From: Filomicrobium sp.
Lineage (GTDB): Bacteria; Pseudomonadota; Alphaproteobacteria; Rhizobiales; Hyphomicrobiaceae
Reading direction: 5' to 3'
Assembly: GCA_017792465.1 (NCBI GenBank)
Contig: CP051234.1
Location: 3,938,501 to 4,002,500, forward strand
DNA length: 64,000 nucleotides
Of this stretch, positions 19,453 to 53,373 are shown piece after piece (position 1 is the stretch's first letter; each line of letters opens with the position of its first letter). Made by a program: the position numbers and the translations under genes. Below the pieces are notes generated by a model that worked only from the letters and a program-made list of their open reading frames with translations, ran no database searches and had not been told where the DNA came from.

Positions 19453-19962
19453 ATGGCGCAGAGTTCTCATGCCACCGGCGAAACGGGCGTTCGAACCCGC
19501 CGGCTCGACCGCTATCTCGCGGCCTACAACGAGCACCACCACAATAGCGTCAACCAAGTCATTCATTTCGTCGCGATACCGATGATTTGCTGGAGCATTT
19601 TCGCAGGACTCGCGGCTTTGCCGTTCCCGGCGGGATGGCAGTTCTGGCCGGGCTTGGGATGGGCAACGGTCGGGGCGATCGTTACCAGCCTCTACTACTT
19701 CACGTTTTCCAGGATGGTCGGGATCGGGGCGGCCGTGTCGCTGGTCATCTTTTTGTTGATCATCGCCATAGTCGATCACGCGTTCGATACGCCGTTGTGG
19801 CTTGTCGCTTTGAGCGTTTTTGCGCTGGCGTGGGTGATGCAGTTCATCGGTCACAAGATCGAAGGCAAGAAGCCCAAGTTTTTTGACGATCTGCGGTATC
19901 TGTTGATCGGGCCTCTTTGGGTGCTCGCCGCCCTCTACCGGATGTTCGGGATCAGGTATTAA
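19453..19962 (+). CDS. DUF962 / Mpo1-like membrane protein
   Basis: This 169-residue protein matches the DUF962 (Mpo1-like) family, whose yeast member Mpo1 is an iron-dependent dioxygenase of 2-hydroxy fatty acids. Family marks are LAAYNEHHHNSVNQVIHFVAIPM near the N-terminus (histidine cluster and a further His) and MQFIGHKIEGKKPKFFDDLRYLLIGPLWV near the C-terminus. Four hydrophobic segments lie between about residues 30 and 160. ATG 19453 follows GGGAGCAGG. It lies 40 nt before ligA. A role in fatty-acid turnover is inferred from the family only. Confidence 0.85.
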   Translation: MAQSSHATGETGVRTRRLDRYLAAYNEHHHNSVNQVIHFVAIPMICWSIFAGLAALPFPAGWQFWPGLGWATVGAIVTSLYYFTFSRMVGIGAAVSLVIFLLIIAIVDHAFDTPLWLVALSVFALAWVMQFIGHKIEGKKPKFFDDLRYLLIGPLWVLAALYRMFGIRY

Positions 19963-45071: not shown

Positions 45072-45308
45072 TTAATCTTGCTGATCGCGTGCGCGTTGGC
45101 GGTAGTAGTCCAGGATGTATAATCTGATTGCGCCGGAAAGCCCGGAGGCGGTGGCATTGCGGGCGATATCGATTGTCTCTACGAACTGAGCCAGCGGTAG
45201 CTTCTTTTCGACGGCGATTTCCTTCAGCGCATCCCAGAAGGGTTCTTCCAACGACAGCGACGTGCGATGTCCGCGGATCTGAAAGGATCGCTTGACCGGT
45301 CGGCTCAT
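45072..45308 (-). CDS. Ribbon-helix-helix (RHH_4) DNA-binding protein
   Basis: The 78-residue protein matches the RHH_4 family: RSFQIRGHRTSLSLEEPFWDAL, then the ELxxxxxLxxxQFVETID helix region and LSGAIRLYILDYYR. Members are small ribbon-helix-helix regulators common in alphaproteobacteria. Its ATG overlaps the stop of the DUF4169 gene (ATGA), so the two are translated together. Targets are unknown. Confidence 0.85.
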   Translation of the reverse strand: MSRPVKRSFQIRGHRTSLSLEEPFWDALKEIAVEKKLPLAQFVETIDIARNATASGLSGAIRLYILDYYRQRARDQQD

Positions 45309-45511
45309 GCGGGCTGATCGTCCGGTGGCTTAGAGCCTTCGATCTTTTGTTGATCGAGACGGTCTTTGAACAGCTTCTTGGTTTTTTCTTCGCCATCGCG
45401 TTGGCTCTTCGTGCGCCCGAAACTTGCGCGGTTTTCAGCGGCGCGCTGTTCCTTGTCGGCGCGGGCTTTGGCTTTGCGTGCCTGGCGAAGATTGATGATT
45501 TCTGCAGCCAT
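45305..45511 (-). CDS. DUF4169 small basic protein
   Basis: The 68-residue, highly charged protein starts MAAEIINLRQARKAKARADK and contains ENRASFGRTK, both typical of DUF4169. It has no hydrophobic segment and is probably helical. Function unknown. It forms a two-gene unit with the downstream RHH gene through a 4-nt ATGA overlap. Confidence 0.8.
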   Translation of the reverse strand: MAAEIINLRQARKAKARADKEQRAAENRASFGRTKSQRDGEEKTKKLFKDRLDQQKIEGSKPPDDQPA

Positions 45512-45635
45512 TTTGCTTTCGGTCTTACTTGGTTTCTGTTTGAAGCTCTTGTCCTGATGCTGTTGACCCGGAGCTTACGCCGTTCAGCCATTTTACGAAC
45601 GGCCGGGGCTTGCAGTCTAAGCCAAAAATCTGCGC

Positions 45636-46616
45636 TCAGAACCAACCTTTATGCTTGAAATAGATAAAGGGGACGATGGCAGAAATCACCATCGCGAGAA
45701 GTGCGATGGGATAGGACCAACTGTAGTCCAGTTCCGGCATGTGCTTGAAGTTCATACCATAAACGCTGGCAATTAGCGTTGGCGGCATGAGCATGACGGC
45801 GGCAACCGAAAACAATTTGATGATCTGGTTTTGCTCGATGCCGATGAGACCGACGGTGGCGTCCATGAGGAAGGACAGCCGTGAAGAGATATGATCCACG
45901 TAGGTGCTCAACGACTGTACGTCCTGCTGCGCCGTTTTGATGTGCTGGTAGTTTATTTTGTCGGTTTTCACTTCCCGGGCGTAGTTATGGAAATAAGTCA
46001 ACATGCGGCCGATGGAGACCAGACTGTCGCGCACGCGTGATGCGATCACGCCGACATTGCCGATTTCTCTCAACGATACAGCGTGGCGCTTTTCGCGGGT
46101 GTAGTCGTGGCGCTTCATGTCGAAGCAGCCCTTGCTGAGGATTTCAATCCGGTGCTGCAGTTTCTCGATCAGGTCGGCTTCTCGTTCGATGATCGCGTCG
46201 ACGAGCCCGACGGTGACGGCGATAGGGTCGCTGCAGCCGACATCTCCTGACTGCGCTCGATTGGCGTAGATCTGGAACGCCTGGGGCACGGCGAAGCGCA
46301 CGGTGATCAGTACATCTTGAAGTAGAGCAAAAGTGATCTCGCCGGTCTGCGGCTCGGGAGATTCGATGCGGTAGACGACGCTGGTCGTCATGATGTGGGC
46401 CGGGCCCTCCTGGTAGAGGCGGCTGGAGGCTTCGATCTCACGCATCTCATCCGGCGTCGGCAGGGTGATGCCGTATTTGGCTTCGATGGCTTCAATTTCT
46501 TCGCTTTTTGGAGCTACGAGGTCGATCCAGACAGGGCGAAACTGGTCGAGATCTTTGGTCTCGATCACGTCGTTGGGTTCGAGGCGCCCACTTTTGCAGG
46601 TGTAGCAGATGATCAT
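45636..46616 (-). CDS. corA: CorA-type magnesium/divalent cation transporter
   Basis: CorA forms a pentameric Mg2+ channel. The N-terminal ~240 residues are the cytoplasmic domain ending in the long stalk helix. The first membrane helix (IIKLFSVAAVMLMPPTLIASVYGMNF) ends in the GMN selectivity motif within YGMNF, and the second helix (YPIALLAMVISAIVPFIYF) is followed by the basic terminal HKGWF. The 326 residues match CorA. ATG 46616 follows GAAGAAG. It is divergent from the candidate sRNA region. Confidence 0.93.
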   Translation of the reverse strand: MIICYTCKSGRLEPNDVIETKDLDQFRPVWIDLVAPKSEEIEAIEAKYGITLPTPDEMREIEASSRLYQEGPAHIMTTSVVYRIESPEPQTGEITFALLQDVLITVRFAVPQAFQIYANRAQSGDVGCSDPIAVTVGLVDAIIEREADLIEKLQHRIEILSKGCFDMKRHDYTREKRHAVSLREIGNVGVIASRVRDSLVSIGRMLTYFHNYAREVKTDKINYQHIKTAQQDVQSLSTYVDHISSRLSFLMDATVGLIGIEQNQIIKLFSVAAVMLMPPTLIASVYGMNFKHMPELDYSWSYPIALLAMVISAIVPFIYFKHKGWF

Positions 46617-46734
46617 GAGTCTTCTTCAGATGCTGCTTGGAGAGTTCCGGGATTCGATCATTAGACCACTCTTGATGACAGAAGCGAGAAGGCGATGGCT
46701 GAGGCTCATTTGTGTATTAGCCGAAGGTGCACGA

Positions 46735-46763
46735 TTGACGCACCTGAATGCCTGGTATACCAT
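46735..46763 (+). promoter_or_regulatory. Predicted sigma-70-type promoter for the candidate sRNA
   Basis: TTGACG (46735-46740) is 5/6 to the -35 consensus. After a 17-nt spacer comes TACCAT (46758-46763) as -10, within the A/T-rich string TATACCATAT. Start of transcription would fall near 46770. Confidence 0.5.
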
Positions 46764-46770
46764 ATGCCAG
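46752..46770. promoter_or_regulatory. Palindromic operator-like site over the -10 region
   Basis: TGGTATACCA at 46753-46762 is a perfect 10-bp palindrome inside a 19-nt imperfect dyad (CTGGTATAC / ATATGCCAG). It resembles sites bound by GntR-family regulators, and its overlap with the predicted -10 would suit repression. No regulator gene is in the window. Confidence 0.45.
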
Positions 46771-46890
46771 CGTGTCCAAATGATCGCAAGGTTGCTGAGC
46801 CTTGCGAGACCCGTGTCCTCCTCCCTATCCCGGGATCTCCCCGGTTGGCCGACTTGGGCGGTCCATACGTGTATGGGCCGCCATTTTTTT
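46770..46890 (+). ncRNA. Candidate trans-acting small RNA with anti-Shine-Dalgarno loop
   Basis: Three stem-loops are visible. SL1: TCGCAAGG (46784-46791) pairs with CCTTGCGA (46800-46807). SL2: CCCG (46810-46813) pairs with CGGG (46831-46834), and its 17-nt loop exposes CCTCCTCCC (46817-46825), complementary to Shine-Dalgarno sequences. SL3 is the terminator at 46857-46890. A promoter lies just upstream. The architecture resembles alphaproteobacterial sRNAs with CCUCCUCCC loops (alpha-r14/NfeR1 of rhizobia, 'cuckoo' RNAs of Rhodobacter), which pair with many mRNAs. An attenuated leader of the gene at 46933 is the main alternative. Confidence 0.65.
46857..46890 (+). terminator. Strong intrinsic terminator
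   Basis: GGCGGTCCATAC (46857-46868) pairs with GTATGGGCCGCC (46871-46882), with one T/G wobble, and is followed by A and seven T (46884-46890). The T-tract is only on the plus strand, where no upstream plus-strand gene exists. It therefore ends a non-coding transcript or attenuates the next gene. Confidence 0.85.
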
Positions 46891-46932
46891 AAGTAACGAA
46901 CCAGCTTAAACGGGATTTTTGCAGGTGCGGTA

Positions 46933-47343
46933 ATGGCTAAAAAAAGCTCGGGATCATGCAACGTCGTTCCTTTTGCCGCCCGGCGGGGCTCCGCTGACAA
47001 GGGGGGGCCGTTTCTGAGCGACGAGGAAGATCATCGTCTGGGCGAGCTTGCTGCGGGCGAATTGCGGGTCGCACTTGGACGGCAAATCGAGGCCGGCAGT
47101 CTCCGCTGGGCCAGAGAGGGCAAGCTGCTGCCAATCGGGGACACCCCGTCGCCGACTGATTCTTATGTGAATTCCGCGTCTGAGGCGTGCGCGCGCGCGG
47201 CGATGCAGGAAGCAATCCGGGCTTTGTTCTGGGAGTGTGGAGAGCCCATTCCGAAAGCGGATATGCCGGTTCGGCTTGTGCGTCTGCAGGAAGAGTTCAA
47301 CGACAGCCTGCGCCGTGTTTTGAAGGATCTCGGCTACGTCTAG
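46933..47343 (+). CDS. Hypothetical protein, 136 residues
   Basis: I do not recognise the family. The protein is soluble, with a Ser/Gly-rich start (MAKKSSGSCNVVPFAARRGS), a central helical stretch (LGELAAGELRVALGRQIEAG) and a C-terminal part ending VRLQEEFNDSLRRVLKDLGYV. ATG 46933 follows AGGTG. It lies 42 nt after a strong terminator, so it needs either a promoter inside the sRNA region or terminator readthrough. Confidence 0.6.
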   Translation: MAKKSSGSCNVVPFAARRGSADKGGPFLSDEEDHRLGELAAGELRVALGRQIEAGSLRWAREGKLLPIGDTPSPTDSYVNSASEACARAAMQEAIRALFWECGEPIPKADMPVRLVRLQEEFNDSLRRVLKDLGYV

Positions 47344-47540
47344 CCCATCGGTCATCCGGTTCCAATTTTCCTGACTTACCTCAAACTTCCTTGACAGGCT
47401 TGAGCAACCTCGCGTTGACTTCGTCCCAATGACAAAGACGAACGTCCAAGATGGTGGACTTCGGCAAGACCGTCGATCTGCCGCTCGGATACCAAACGAG
47501 ACGAAACGCAACAGAGCATTCGCGCTCCTGGAGGAAGTCC

Positions 47541-49667
47541 ATGAACGATCAGCCTAGCGTCAAAGAATTTTTTGGCGGTTGCCCGCACGATTGTCCCGAT
47601 ACCTGCTCGATGCTGTTTCAAGTCGAAGACGGCAAGGTCAAAGGGGTCCGCGGCAACCCGGATCACCCGATGACGCGTGGCGGGCTTTGCGTGAAGCTCA
47701 AGGATTATGAGAAGCGGCACTATCATCCTGACCGGCTTCTTTATCCGCTGCGCCGCATCGGTCCGAAGGGTTCAAAGCAGTTTCAGCGGATCAGCTGGGA
47801 CGATGCGCTCGATGAAATCGTCACGCGCTGGAAAGCCATCATCGACGAGCATGGTCCGCAGGCCATCGCTCCTTATAGCTATCTCGGACACCAGGGATTG
47901 GTGCATGGGCTCAACGGCGGGGACGCCTTCTTCAATCGTCTTGGCGCAACCGTTATGGAGCGGACGTTCTGTGGCGAGGGTTCATGCACGGCCTGGCTCT
48001 TGACGGTTGGGCCGACGGCTGGCGTTGATCCGGAGAGCTACATTCATTCGAAATACATCGTCATCTGGGCGTGCAATTCGGTTTCGACCAACCTGCATCA
48101 CTGGGCGATCGTCAACGAGGCCAAGAAAAAAGGCGCCAAGGTTGTTGTGATCGATGCTTATCGTTCGCGCACCGCCAAGGAAGCCGATTGGCATATCTGT
48201 CCGAAGCCCGGCACCGATGGCGCGTTGGCGATGGCAGTGATCAATTCCATCATTGAGCAAGGGCTCGTCGATCAGGACTACGTCGACAACTACACATCCG
48301 GTTTCGAAGCGCTGAAGGAACGCGCAAGCGAGCGGACGCCTGAATGGGCTGCCGAAATCACGGGAATTCCTGCGGACGATATCCGCAAGTTCGCGCGCGA
48401 ACTCGCCACTTCGCAGCCGGCGGCCATCCGCATTGGCGTGGCGCTTGAGCGGCATCACGGCGGCGGGCAGACGATCCGCGCGGTGTCGTGCATACCGGCA
48501 CTGACCGGTGCATGGCGGCATGTCGGTGGCGGCATCACGCAGTTTCCGGTCTGGGAACATCCCTACAAGTTCGACGTGATCTGTCGTCCGGATCTCATTC
48601 CGGAAGGAACGCAGGTCGTCAACAATCTGCAGATCGGCCGGGCGCTTTTGGGCGAGCTCGATCTCAAGGTGCCGATCAAGTCGATGATGTGCTGGAACTC
48701 GAACCCGGTCACGCAGGCGCCTGAGACAGACAAGATTGTCGAGGCGCTGAAGAGCGAGGATTTGTTCCTCGTTTCAGCTGAGCATTTCATCTCCGATACC
48801 GCATCCTATGCCGATATCATTCTGCCGGCCTCGATGGGGGCGGAGATGGAGGACATGATCCTGTCCTGGGGCCACCTCTATCTGACCTACAACGCCAAGT
48901 CTGCGGAGTCTCCAGGCGAGGCGATCCCGAACAACGAGATCTTCCGCCGCCTGGCTGCAAGGCTCGGGTTTGAAGAAGACAACTTCAAATGGTCGGATTC
49001 TGAATGCCTTGAGCATTACGTCGATTGGGAATCACCGGCGTGCGAAGGCATTGATCTTGAGTATATGCGCGAGCATGGGTACGCGCGCCTCAAGGTCGGC
49101 ACCAAGGACGACCGGGCGCCGCACAAGGAAGGTAACTTCCCGACGCCGACGGGCAAATGCATGTTCGAGGTTCCTGACGCGCATAACTTCGTGGCAGGTC
49201 CGTTCCGGCAGATGTATGAGGATTTCCAGCCGGGCGAGCCGCTCGATCCGCTGCCCGATTACACGCCGCCAAGAGAGTCTCCGGTAACCAATCCGCTTCT
49301 GGCGGAAAAATTCCCGCTCAATATCGTCTCGCCGAAAAGCCACGGCTTCCTCAATTCCTGTTACGCCAACATGGCCGAAAAGATTAAAGGTCAAGGCGAT
49401 CAGTTCATCCTCATCAGCCAGGCGGATGCGACGCCGCGCGGGATCGTCGAAGGTGACCGGGTCAAGGTCACTAACGGCCGTGGGGCGTTCAAGGCGGTGG
49501 CTCGCATCAGTGAGGACGTGAACGAGGGCGTGGTCGTCGCGACGCTTGGGTATTGGCGTCAGCTCAACGACGGGACCGTCAACTCCATCAGCTCGGCAGA
49601 ATTCACCGACATGGGGCACGCACCGTCGTTCTCCGACAATCTCGTGGAAGTGACGCGGAGTAATTAA
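47541..49667 (+). CDS. Cytoplasmic molybdopterin-dependent oxidoreductase with [4Fe-4S] cluster
   Basis: This is a member of the DMSO-reductase superfamily (COG0243), 708 residues from ATG 47541 with GGAGG at 47530-47534. An N-terminal [4Fe-4S] site is formed by C14-x3-C18-x3-C22-x27-C50 (CPHDCPDTCSM, GGLC). YSYLGHQGLVHG, RTFCGEGSCTAW, NPVTQAPET and the C-terminal dinucleotide-binding domain (ISQADATPRGIVEGDRV) follow in order. No Tat signal is present, so it is cytoplasmic. No iron-sulfur or membrane partner is adjacent. Substrate unknown. An upstream ATG at 47451 lacks a ribosome-binding site. Confidence 0.9.
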   Translation: MNDQPSVKEFFGGCPHDCPDTCSMLFQVEDGKVKGVRGNPDHPMTRGGLCVKLKDYEKRHYHPDRLLYPLRRIGPKGSKQFQRISWDDALDEIVTRWKAIIDEHGPQAIAPYSYLGHQGLVHGLNGGDAFFNRLGATVMERTFCGEGSCTAWLLTVGPTAGVDPESYIHSKYIVIWACNSVSTNLHHWAIVNEAKKKGAKVVVIDAYRSRTAKEADWHICPKPGTDGALAMAVINSIIEQGLVDQDYVDNYTSGFEALKERASERTPEWAAEITGIPADDIRKFARELATSQPAAIRIGVALERHHGGGQTIRAVSCIPALTGAWRHVGGGITQFPVWEHPYKFDVICRPDLIPEGTQVVNNLQIGRALLGELDLKVPIKSMMCWNSNPVTQAPETDKIVEALKSEDLFLVSAEHFISDTASYADIILPASMGAEMEDMILSWGHLYLTYNAKSAESPGEAIPNNEIFRRLAARLGFEEDNFKWSDSECLEHYVDWESPACEGIDLEYMREHGYARLKVGTKDDRAPHKEGNFPTPTGKCMFEVPDAHNFVAGPFRQMYEDFQPGEPLDPLPDYTPPRESPVTNPLLAEKFPLNIVSPKSHGFLNSCYANMAEKIKGQGDQFILISQADATPRGIVEGDRVKVTNGRGAFKAVARISEDVNEGVVVATLGYWRQLNDGTVNSISSAEFTDMGHAPSFSDNLVEVTRSN

Positions 49668-49698
49668 GGTCTGCGTTGATCGCGAATTGAGCAAGACG

Positions 49699-49724
49699 AA
49701 GGGCCTCGAAACGAGGCCCTTTTT
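49699..49724 (+). terminator. Intrinsic terminator after the molybdopterin oxidoreductase
   Basis: AAGGGCCTCG (49699-49708) pairs with CGAGGCCCTT (49712-49721) around an AAA loop, followed by TTT. It lies 32 nt after the stop codon. Confidence 0.85.
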
Positions 49725-49789
49725 GCTTTGTTACTCTGCGCTAATCGTATCCGGAAAGGCTGGTGTTCGACCGCGCACACCCAACGGTT

Positions 49790-50515
49790 TTAGATCGAAC
49801 GTTGGTTGACCCGTTTGGAGAGTTCTGCTGCCGTTTCACCGCGCTCTGAATAGCGGTCAACCAGGATTTCGGAGCGGCCGCGCACCAGCCAGGTGAACTT
49901 CACGAGTTCTTCCATGACATCGACGAGGCGGTTGTAGTAGGGCGAGGCAAGCATGCGTCCGGCGTCGTCGAACTCTGTGAAGGCCTTGGGGACGGACGAC
50001 TGGTTGGGGATCGTTACCATCCGCATCCAGCGGCCGAGAATGCGCATCTGGTTGACGGCGTTGAAACTCTGCGAGCCGCCGTTGACCTGACAAAGCGCAA
50101 GGGTCTTGCCCTGGGTCGGGCGGACAGCGCCAACGGAAAGCGGAATCCAATCGATCTGGGCTTTCATGATGGCCGTCATCGCGCCGTGGCGCTCGGGCGA
50201 GACCCAGACCATACCTTCCGCCCATATCGCCTTGTCGCGTAGTTCCTGCACTTTCGGGTGTGTGGGTTCAGCCGCGTCCGGCAGCGGCAGGCCTGCGGGA
50301 TCGAAGGTTTGCGTTTCGGCGCCGAAATGGCGCAGCAGGCGGGCGGCTTCTTGCGACATGAAGCGCGAAAACGAGCGCTCCCGCAGCGATCCGTAAAGCA
50401 CCAGGATGCGAGGCGGGTGTCCGGGATCATTGTGCGACGCGTAGGCCTGGCTGTCGATCAGGCGGTCGTGCTCGGCCTCGAGGTTCGGCAAGCTGTCGTC
50501 TTGGATGTCGGTCAC
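49790..50515 (-). CDS. arsH: ArsH-type NADPH-dependent FMN reductase
   Basis: ArsH is a flavoprotein that oxidises trivalent organoarsenicals or reduces other substrates with [19 protein letters not shown] is the FMN-phosphate loop, [22 protein letters not shown] the flavin-binding core, and [24 protein letters not shown] is distinctive of ArsH. The 241 residues match the family. It is not next to arsR, arsC or arsB, so a role in arsenic resistance is uncertain here. Confidence 0.88.
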
Positions 50516-52825: not shown

Positions 52826-52920
52826 CCCGTCCTGCGCGTTTTTATACTGCCCTCGTGCGACTCGTTCGTGGTCGCATAATCCAGTTTTCGGCGCAACTTG
52901 GCCGTCAGGTCAAGTTGAAG

Positions 52921-53269
52921 TGGAGGGCTTCTGTTGCCCGGTGCCCTCCGAAACCGCGCCTTACCCTGCTAGGGGCAAGGGCTTTAGGTAGGCATTAGGC
53001 ACTGCATTACGCAGCGACTGCAGCCTCAGCATAGTTGTCATTTGCAACTATTGAATCGGCCCGATAACGGCGGAACCATGCCGAGCGAAAGCTAAACCCT
53101 TTACACCCTCGTCGATCCTATTTCGCCCCCATCAGATGCCCGTTTTCCCAAGTGTTTCGGCGTTTGCCGGGAACCTTGAAACGGGCATGTGGTGGAGGCG
53201 CCGGGTACCGCCCCCGGGTCCGAATGGCTTATTACGGCCGCGTTTATCGCCATAGCCGGCGAACCGGCT
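52921..53269 (-). ncRNA. ssrA: Two-piece (circularly permuted) tmRNA
   Basis: tmRNA rescues stalled ribosomes. Read on the minus strand: the acceptor piece (~53269-53190) begins with a UUCG-capped hairpin (AGCCGG/CCGGCT) and ends CCTCCACCA. A ~59-nt spacer (53189-53131) follows, then the coding piece, starting GGGGGCGAAATAGG at 53130. GGGGGCG pairs with CGCCTCC of the acceptor end and includes the G3-U70 pair required for alanylation. The tag frame at 53045-53007 reads ANDNYAEAAVAA then stop, with GCA as resume codon. The 3' end is set at the last hairpin (52921-52948). TATATC at 53275-53280 is a likely -10. Confidence 0.93.
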
Positions 53270-53373
53270 CACTAGATATATGATGCCGGCGCGCGAAAAA
53301 AAAGTGCCGTGTTGAGAACTGGTTGTGCGTTCTCGCTGATGTCGGGCCGGCGTGGCGCGGTGTCGCGCTGGAC

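Follow-up and report, generated by a model that had tools for sequence, protein, structure and literature searches.

The interval 46735–46890 of the window, as we call the whole 64,000-nucleotide stretch of Filomicrobium sp. DNA analyzed here (from a 4.47-Mb genome in one contig, G000), is best explained as a regulated, trans-acting anti-Shine-Dalgarno (anti-SD) small RNA gene, a reading to which we assign a little more than an even chance. A σ70-type promoter would drive an RNA of ~120 nt, probably gated by a regulator at a 17-bp inverted repeat over the −10 element, and an intrinsic terminator would end this independent transcription unit (46735–46890). From 5′ to 3′, the predicted RNA comprises a 5′ hairpin, a CU-rich and mostly single-stranded anti-SD linker, and a small hairpin, followed by GACUUGGGC and by a U-tailed terminator of the type that Hfq binds. 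Its most likely mode of action, like that of the alpha-r8, alpha-r14, and AbcR RNAs, would be to base-pair in trans with Shine-Dalgarno regions and so prevent translation from initiating, perhaps on mRNAs for uptake and carbon metabolism. We infer its transcription, regulator, Hfq binding, targets, and repressive effect from elements that are present in the DNA and conserved in one relative.

Architecture of the predicted unit

The locus is flanked on the left by a divergent corA-type transporter gene (45636–46616, minus strand; Pfam CorA, 5e-48), and the three recognizable genes on that side (corA, DUF4169, and RHH_4) all lie on the minus strand, consistent with the original prediction that no plus-strand gene precedes the unit. 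The conserved ORF on the right is encoded on the plus strand: an orphan of 136 aa (46933–47343) that begins 42 nt 3′ of the terminator T-run, into which read-through is possible. It has no Pfam or NCBIfam match, and a molybdopterin oxidoreductase comes next after it. A mechanical ORF list places unsupported ORFs across the site on both strands. Because corA points away and the 136-aa ORF lies downstream, the only transcript that the terminator could end is one initiated on the plus strand between the two; no recognizable neighboring gene needs this terminator.

The promoter proposed originally is found at 46735–46763, with a −35 hexamer TTGACG (46735–46740) and a −10 hexamer TACCAT (46758–46763) separated by a 17-nt spacer. 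It matches the consensus at 9 of 12 positions and is the single promoter-like site returned by a scan of 46600–47000 (shuffle mean 0.2, sd 0.5). A 17-bp inverted repeat, TGGTATA-N3-TATGCCA (46753–46769), overlaps the −10 hexamer and forms a candidate operator. When up to one mismatch is allowed, this repeat has no other match in the window and none in 100 shuffles; an imperfect palindrome per se (7/9) is unremarkable in this genome, with 127 such 19-mers in the window. At the other end of the unit, an 11-bp stem with a loop of 4 (46857–46882, z −4.5) is preceded by GGUUGGCCGACUUG and followed by a run of seven T (46884–46890), as had been described. This is the only terminator-like site in 46600–47000 (shuffle mean 0.3, sd 0.7).

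The predicted small RNA spans ~120 nt (46770–46890, plus strand), with its 5′ end placed from the position of the −10 hexamer, and the transcript 46768–46892 folds with a z-score of −3.7. The original prediction envisaged three stem-loops, the second of which would expose the anti-SD motif in a 17-nt loop. The first (SL1, 46784–46807, 10 bp with a 4-nt loop, z −4.5) and the terminator hold up. The second does not: its pairs (46810–46813 with 46831–46834, −2.9 kcal/mol alone) have a probability of 0.002, versus 0.91–0.94 for a small hairpin, CCGGG-AUCUC-CCCGG (46830–46844), that competes for the same CGGG. The anti-SD stretch therefore sits in a linker, and this linker (46806–46850) is predicted to fold no more stably than its shuffles (z +0.4). 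The motif itself, CCTCCTCCC in the DNA and CCUCCUCCC in the RNA, is confirmed at 46817–46825 as a single copy in the window. Pair probabilities mark it as mostly single-stranded, with unpaired values of 0.27–0.97 across the nine bases: three exceed 0.9, one is 0.87, and five fall at 0.27–0.74. By itself the 9-mer is not significant, since 0.75 occurrences are expected per window and 51 of 100 shuffles contain at least one. Downstream of the small hairpin, GACUUGGGC (46851–46859) is also found in alpha-r8/MmgR RNAs of the same genome.

Conservation and the downstream reading frame

Among eight further genomes of the genus, the RNA is found in one (G005), where the unit occupies the same site between an RHH_4-like gene (assigned by eye) and the 136-aa ORF. 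The G005 unit displays the same promoter, the 17-bp inverted repeat over the −10 hexamer, a CU-rich linker, GGTTGGCnGACT, and the terminator. Its −35 region is kept as GCAC.ATTGACGC and its −10 hexamer reads TACAGT at the same spacing. The inverted repeat in G005 is a perfect 7-3-7 (positions 1315–1331 of the extracted locus, L111), giving TGGyATA-N3-TATGCCA as the form common to both genomes. Among 239 loci the repeat appears in 10, every one a copy of the G000 or G005 site. This common core suggests a putative dimeric regulator, and the conserved operator-like repeat offers a handle on the protein that would control the candidate RNA. The G005 −10 hexamer also lies under a 27-bp palindrome, GCATATGGCATAC-A-GTATGCCATATGC (L111 ~1310–1336), which is perfect by reading and a strong operator candidate; a scripted palindrome search at this site returned a 33-mer (13/16).

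To quantify conservation between the two genomes, local alignment scores were compared with those of 2000 shuffles. For the promoter region the score is 38 and the shuffle mean 15.3, with none of the 2000 as high. The pre-terminator transcript (26 versus 17.8; 59/2000 as high), the terminator sequence (18 versus 12.0; 49/2000), and the linker alone (26 versus 18.9; 93/2000) follow, the last modestly above chance, and the region 3′ of the T-run is not conserved (16 versus 13.0; 339/2000). All 11 terminator pairs are kept in G005, five of them changed on both sides; six slid controls contain at most one two-sided pair, and 13 of 500 column shuffles equal the observed number. The covariation support is modest, since two sequences are compared and one of them supplied the structure. 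The G005 U-tract is interrupted (UUUUCUU). In the 5′ region the two genomes share CGCAAGG, and the predicted G005 stem varies with the start of the fold: CAAGG/CCUUG pairing forms only from L111 1340, and starts at 1320 and 1328 yield another stem. The G005 linker is CU-rich and contains CCUCCU; the exact 9-mer CCUCCUCCC is absent and CUCCCCCUUCCCUCCUC takes its place. The terminator stem is conserved in G005, SL1 less clearly, and the proposed small RNA unit retains its promoter, repeat, and terminator but not the exact anti-SD sequence. Conservation of these three elements at the same site, and more weakly that of the linker, supports an autonomous small transcription unit with an anti-SD stretch. 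The transcription unit at 46735–46890 is probably real and probably expressed.

Chance occurrence of a promoter and a terminator between genes would fit the expected frequency of the 9-mer and the barely conserved linker, but we regard this as very improbable given that the promoter, the repeat, and the covarying terminator are conserved in G005.

The small RNA reading draws on the promoter-like site, SL1, and terminator, all of which exceed shuffles, and on the match of CCUCCCUA, GACUUGGGC, and the terminator to alpha-r8 RNAs of the same genome. Against it, only two genomes carry the unit, the second has another sequence in place of the exact 9-mer, and the same orphan ORF lies directly downstream in both, an arrangement that suits a leader. 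The main rival, which we consider unlikely, treats the unit as the 5′ leader of the 136-aa ORF: transcription would start at ~46770 and mostly stop at the terminator, reading through once some factor or condition makes termination weaker, and the CU-rich stretch may mask the Shine-Dalgarno sequence of the ORF. The order and spacing of promoter, terminator, and ORF are kept in G000 and G005 (42 and ~52 nt, respectively, from T-run to ATG), and 46600–47000 contains no second promoter-like site. A third genome (G001) retains the −35 element, but the RNA is missing along with most of the 136-aa ORF, a state that fits one deletion. The G005 linker pairs with the AGGAGG of the ORF, and none of 44 ribosome-site regions from crude window ORFs gives as strong a pairing; in G000, however, this pairing is ordinary, 13 of 44 sites in the crude ORF set being as strong. 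As in terminator-controlled mRNA leaders, a promoter, structured leader, intrinsic terminator, and ORF follow one another in one direction, but no antiterminator or sensor is recognized here and the ORF has no assigned function. Pairing of the leader with the 5′ arm of the terminator reaches only about −10 kcal/mol in both genomes, so no antiterminator stands out, and in G000 the terminator is intact and strong. Forcing its 5′ arm open in a purely thermodynamic test gives −60.7, versus −73.9 for the unconstrained fold.

The 136-aa ORF is found in 3 of 102 family genomes, namely G000, G005 (60% identity), and G001 (a C-terminal remnant), and in an order sample of 397 genomes, composed without G005, in G000 alone. 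It occurs without the small RNA unit only as the G001 remnant. A genus-restricted dual locus would combine both outcomes: termination would yield an anti-SD small RNA acting in trans to repress uptake genes, read-through would yield the mRNA of the 136-aa protein with a ribosome site maskable by the same stretch, and RNA and protein would form one switch. We judge this composite improbable. We give almost no weight to a tiny gene, a short, nearly leaderless ORF that starts at 46780, has 38 codons (39 for the similarly placed frame in G005), and runs past the terminator. Both genomes keep it open, and by reading its frame is the same with respect to the terminator, but neither start is preceded by a Shine-Dalgarno sequence, the two peptides are by reading barely alike apart from the terminator part, and further short frames are open at the site.

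Searches beyond G005 returned the small RNA unit itself and little else. A DNA similarity search with 46735–46900 against 59 genomes gave only the self match, at a divergence too high for this to demonstrate absence, and the exact motif pattern matched the own genome alone among 103 family genomes. Anchoring on corA led to other neighborhoods, and G005 has no corA match at all. Among the CTCCTCCC hits in a set of 107 loci, none besides the two own copies has this layout by eye. A covariance model (R1) built from the two 3′ halves (G000 and G005) recovered both sequences in the family genomes at E 2.7e-22 and 2.3e-21, and 23 further genomes at E 5.9e-5 to 0.85 only. Of 397 order genomes, the own one aside, 13 reached E ≤0.05, the best at 7.1e-4; both the family and the order searches ran with stricter filters, which may miss diverged copies. 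Over 26 loci R1 recovered the two known copies, plus three matches at 12.8–17.9 bits. Present in 2 of 103 family genomes, both of which entered model building, the unit looks lineage-restricted.

The top weak family match of R1 (L119 in G086, 1501–1584; E 5.9e-5, 30.9 bits) carries GTTGGCCGACTTG and a stem without a T-run. Among the 12 order loci inspected, one (L192) is an alpha-r8 RNA and most others resemble bare terminators or coding sequence by eye. Two genomes from one other genus of the order (L185 and L189) contain a similar-looking, unproven RNA candidate at oriented positions 1501–1579, in which the CU-rich CUUCCUCUUCC and GACCUCCC are followed by a terminator, ACUGGGGCGGACC; it is near-identical in both by eye, with AGTTTACACTGGGGAAAG shared upstream.

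Relation to known RNA families

Rfam models at gathering thresholds identify only tmRNA in the whole window, and an alphaproteobacterial tmRNA is located at 52916–53307 on the minus strand (tag ANDNYAEAAVAA). ARAGORN also called a tRNA at 19475–19573 on the minus strand, with an undefined four-base anticodon (ggtg), which is probably a false call. Around the locus, five Rfam matches appear at E ≤10: suhB/MmgR (RF00519), the best, with 18.7 bits and E 0.16, below its gathering cut-off of 41, followed by sbrA (15.3 bits), ceN106 (15.3), SorY (11.7), and sR35 (9.5). Neither an alpha-r14 family, if Rfam includes one, nor an AbcR-named family is among these five matches.

The layout had originally been likened to alpha-r14 and cuckoo RNAs, an assignment that neither comparison bears out. 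The exact CCUCCUCCC 9-mer and a σ70-type promoter are shared with alpha-r14 (NfeR1). According to two reports (PMC10746234, PMC3927594), however, alpha-r14 RNAs present the motif unpaired in three hairpins and a sister group in four; the candidate has one copy in the window, outside any stable loop, and the proposed motif hairpin is not favored. Membership therefore fails. SmelA075 is described with the same motif loops as alpha-r14/NfeR1. The working principle of the candidate would match that of alpha-r14 RNAs despite the failed membership.

Cuckoo RNAs carry an anti-SD motif of this type, in hairpin loops, and the likeness of the candidate to them and to CcsR (CIN1 locus) lies in this motif. 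The cuckoo RNAs and the CIN1 locus associate with a DUF1127 gene (PMC10253847). The candidate differs as a single unit with its own promoter-like site; it has no motif loop, and no DUF1127 domain was identified by Pfam in the six neighboring proteins scanned (45072–50515), so cuckoo/CIN1 membership fails as well.

The alpha-r8 family (MmgR, SisA-D; RF00519 suhB) resembles the candidate more broadly, in a 5′ hairpin, a mostly single-stranded anti-SD CCUCCCUA, GACUUGGGC, and a U-tailed terminator. In Caulobacter, the alpha-r8 family works by means of a 10-mer that bears an anti-SD signature, is sponged in an Hfq-mediated manner, and exposes a single-stranded UUUCCUCCCU downstream of a weak hairpin (PMC12559287). 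The candidate matches 8 of 10 bases of this 10-mer (CCUCCUCCCU), mostly unpaired but behind a strong hairpin, and possesses the Rho-independent terminator that characterizes alpha-r8. Two alpha-r8 RNAs of the same genome, at C1:36564–36639 (70.3 bits) and C1:36953–37030 (46.6 bits), read UUUCCUCCCUAGACUUGGGC and UUUCCUCCCUGGACUUGGGC, respectively; the candidate reads CCUCCUCCCUA and GACUUGGGC with 23 nt, the small hairpin, between them. In alpha-r8, CCUCCCUA and GACUUGGGC adjoin. The candidate also lies at another locus and is longer (~120 nt versus the 77 nt reported for MmgR; PMC7143759).

The candidate may be a diverged alpha-r8 relative or a convergent RNA. Descent as an alpha-r8/MmgR paralogue with a 23-nt hairpin insert between CCUCCCUA and GACUUGGGC is possible but doubtful; it is a question of ancestry and overlaps with the small RNA reading. 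The top Rfam match, the 10-mer agreement (by reading), and the fact that 9 of the 23 weak family matches of R1 are alpha-r8 RNAs by eye all favor it, as does the presence of other alpha-r8 RNAs in this genome, one already diverged. The score nevertheless falls far under the cut-off of 41, sbrA and ceN106 score nearly as well, the G005 copy retains neither an intact CCUCCCU nor an intact GACUUGGGC, and short CU-rich and pre-terminator motifs can converge. The diverged alpha-r8-like RNA, the third in the genome (L180, C1:228817–228899, plus strand), scores 40 bits against the cut-off of 41 and combines GCCUCCCUGUUGACUU with a terminator. The pair of alpha-r8 RNAs occurs twice, at C1:36564–37030 and C1:4464923–4465389, at an identical offset of 4,428,359 bases and near both contig ends, which suggests an untrimmed ~42.5-kb overlap of a circular assembly rather than gene duplication.

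AbcR1/2 (alpha-r15) are likewise ~120 nt, with three hairpins, a CU-rich anti-SD stretch, and transport genes among their predicted targets. They form a tandem pair, whereas the candidate has one copy in the genome by DNA similarity. An A/U-rich single-stranded stretch precedes the alpha-r15 terminator as described in PMC3712013, and the candidate lacks it, with GGUUGGCCGACUUG there instead. Rhizobiales RNA families with Hyphomicrobiaceae members are reported in PMC3927594; our literature search found no Hyphomicrobiaceae RNA of this kind. The candidate most likely represents a new small RNA that works in a known way but lies outside the families first named for it. If expressed, it would be a recently arisen or fast-evolving addition to the alphaproteobacterial anti-SD RNAs, and its coexistence with conserved alpha-r8 RNAs in one genome would make it possible to test how RNAs of this sort originate and share tasks.

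Candidate targets

The genome contains 46 GGGAGGA-N3-12-ATG sites (16 for a reversed-pattern control that is not a fair match), and 30 of the 45 examined lead into an ORF that is ≥60 codons long. Twenty of these 30 ORFs, chosen partly by look and with no control set, were scanned with Pfam. Transport components account for six (SBP_bac_3, TctC twice, TctB, DctP, and DctM), with the TctB gene and one TctC gene adjoining each other. The other scanned ORFs include Fae, an acetyl-CoA-synthetase-type enzyme, and an ATP-grasp CoA ligase, several belonging to C1 or central carbon metabolism, and two of the 20 have no Pfam family. GGGAGGA is itself a strong Shine-Dalgarno sequence, and alpha-r8 fits many of the same sites equally well or better; the target list is therefore a lead only. 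Whole-transcript duplex energies ignore accessibility and were set aside. The SBP_bac_3 gene offers 11 contiguous Watson-Crick pairs with the RNA, an 11-nt match that is not significant among 30 such sites by a hand estimate, and the site in the solute-binding-protein leader (L199) reads AUAGGGAGGAG. The list resembles the targets reported for NfeR1 and AbcR.
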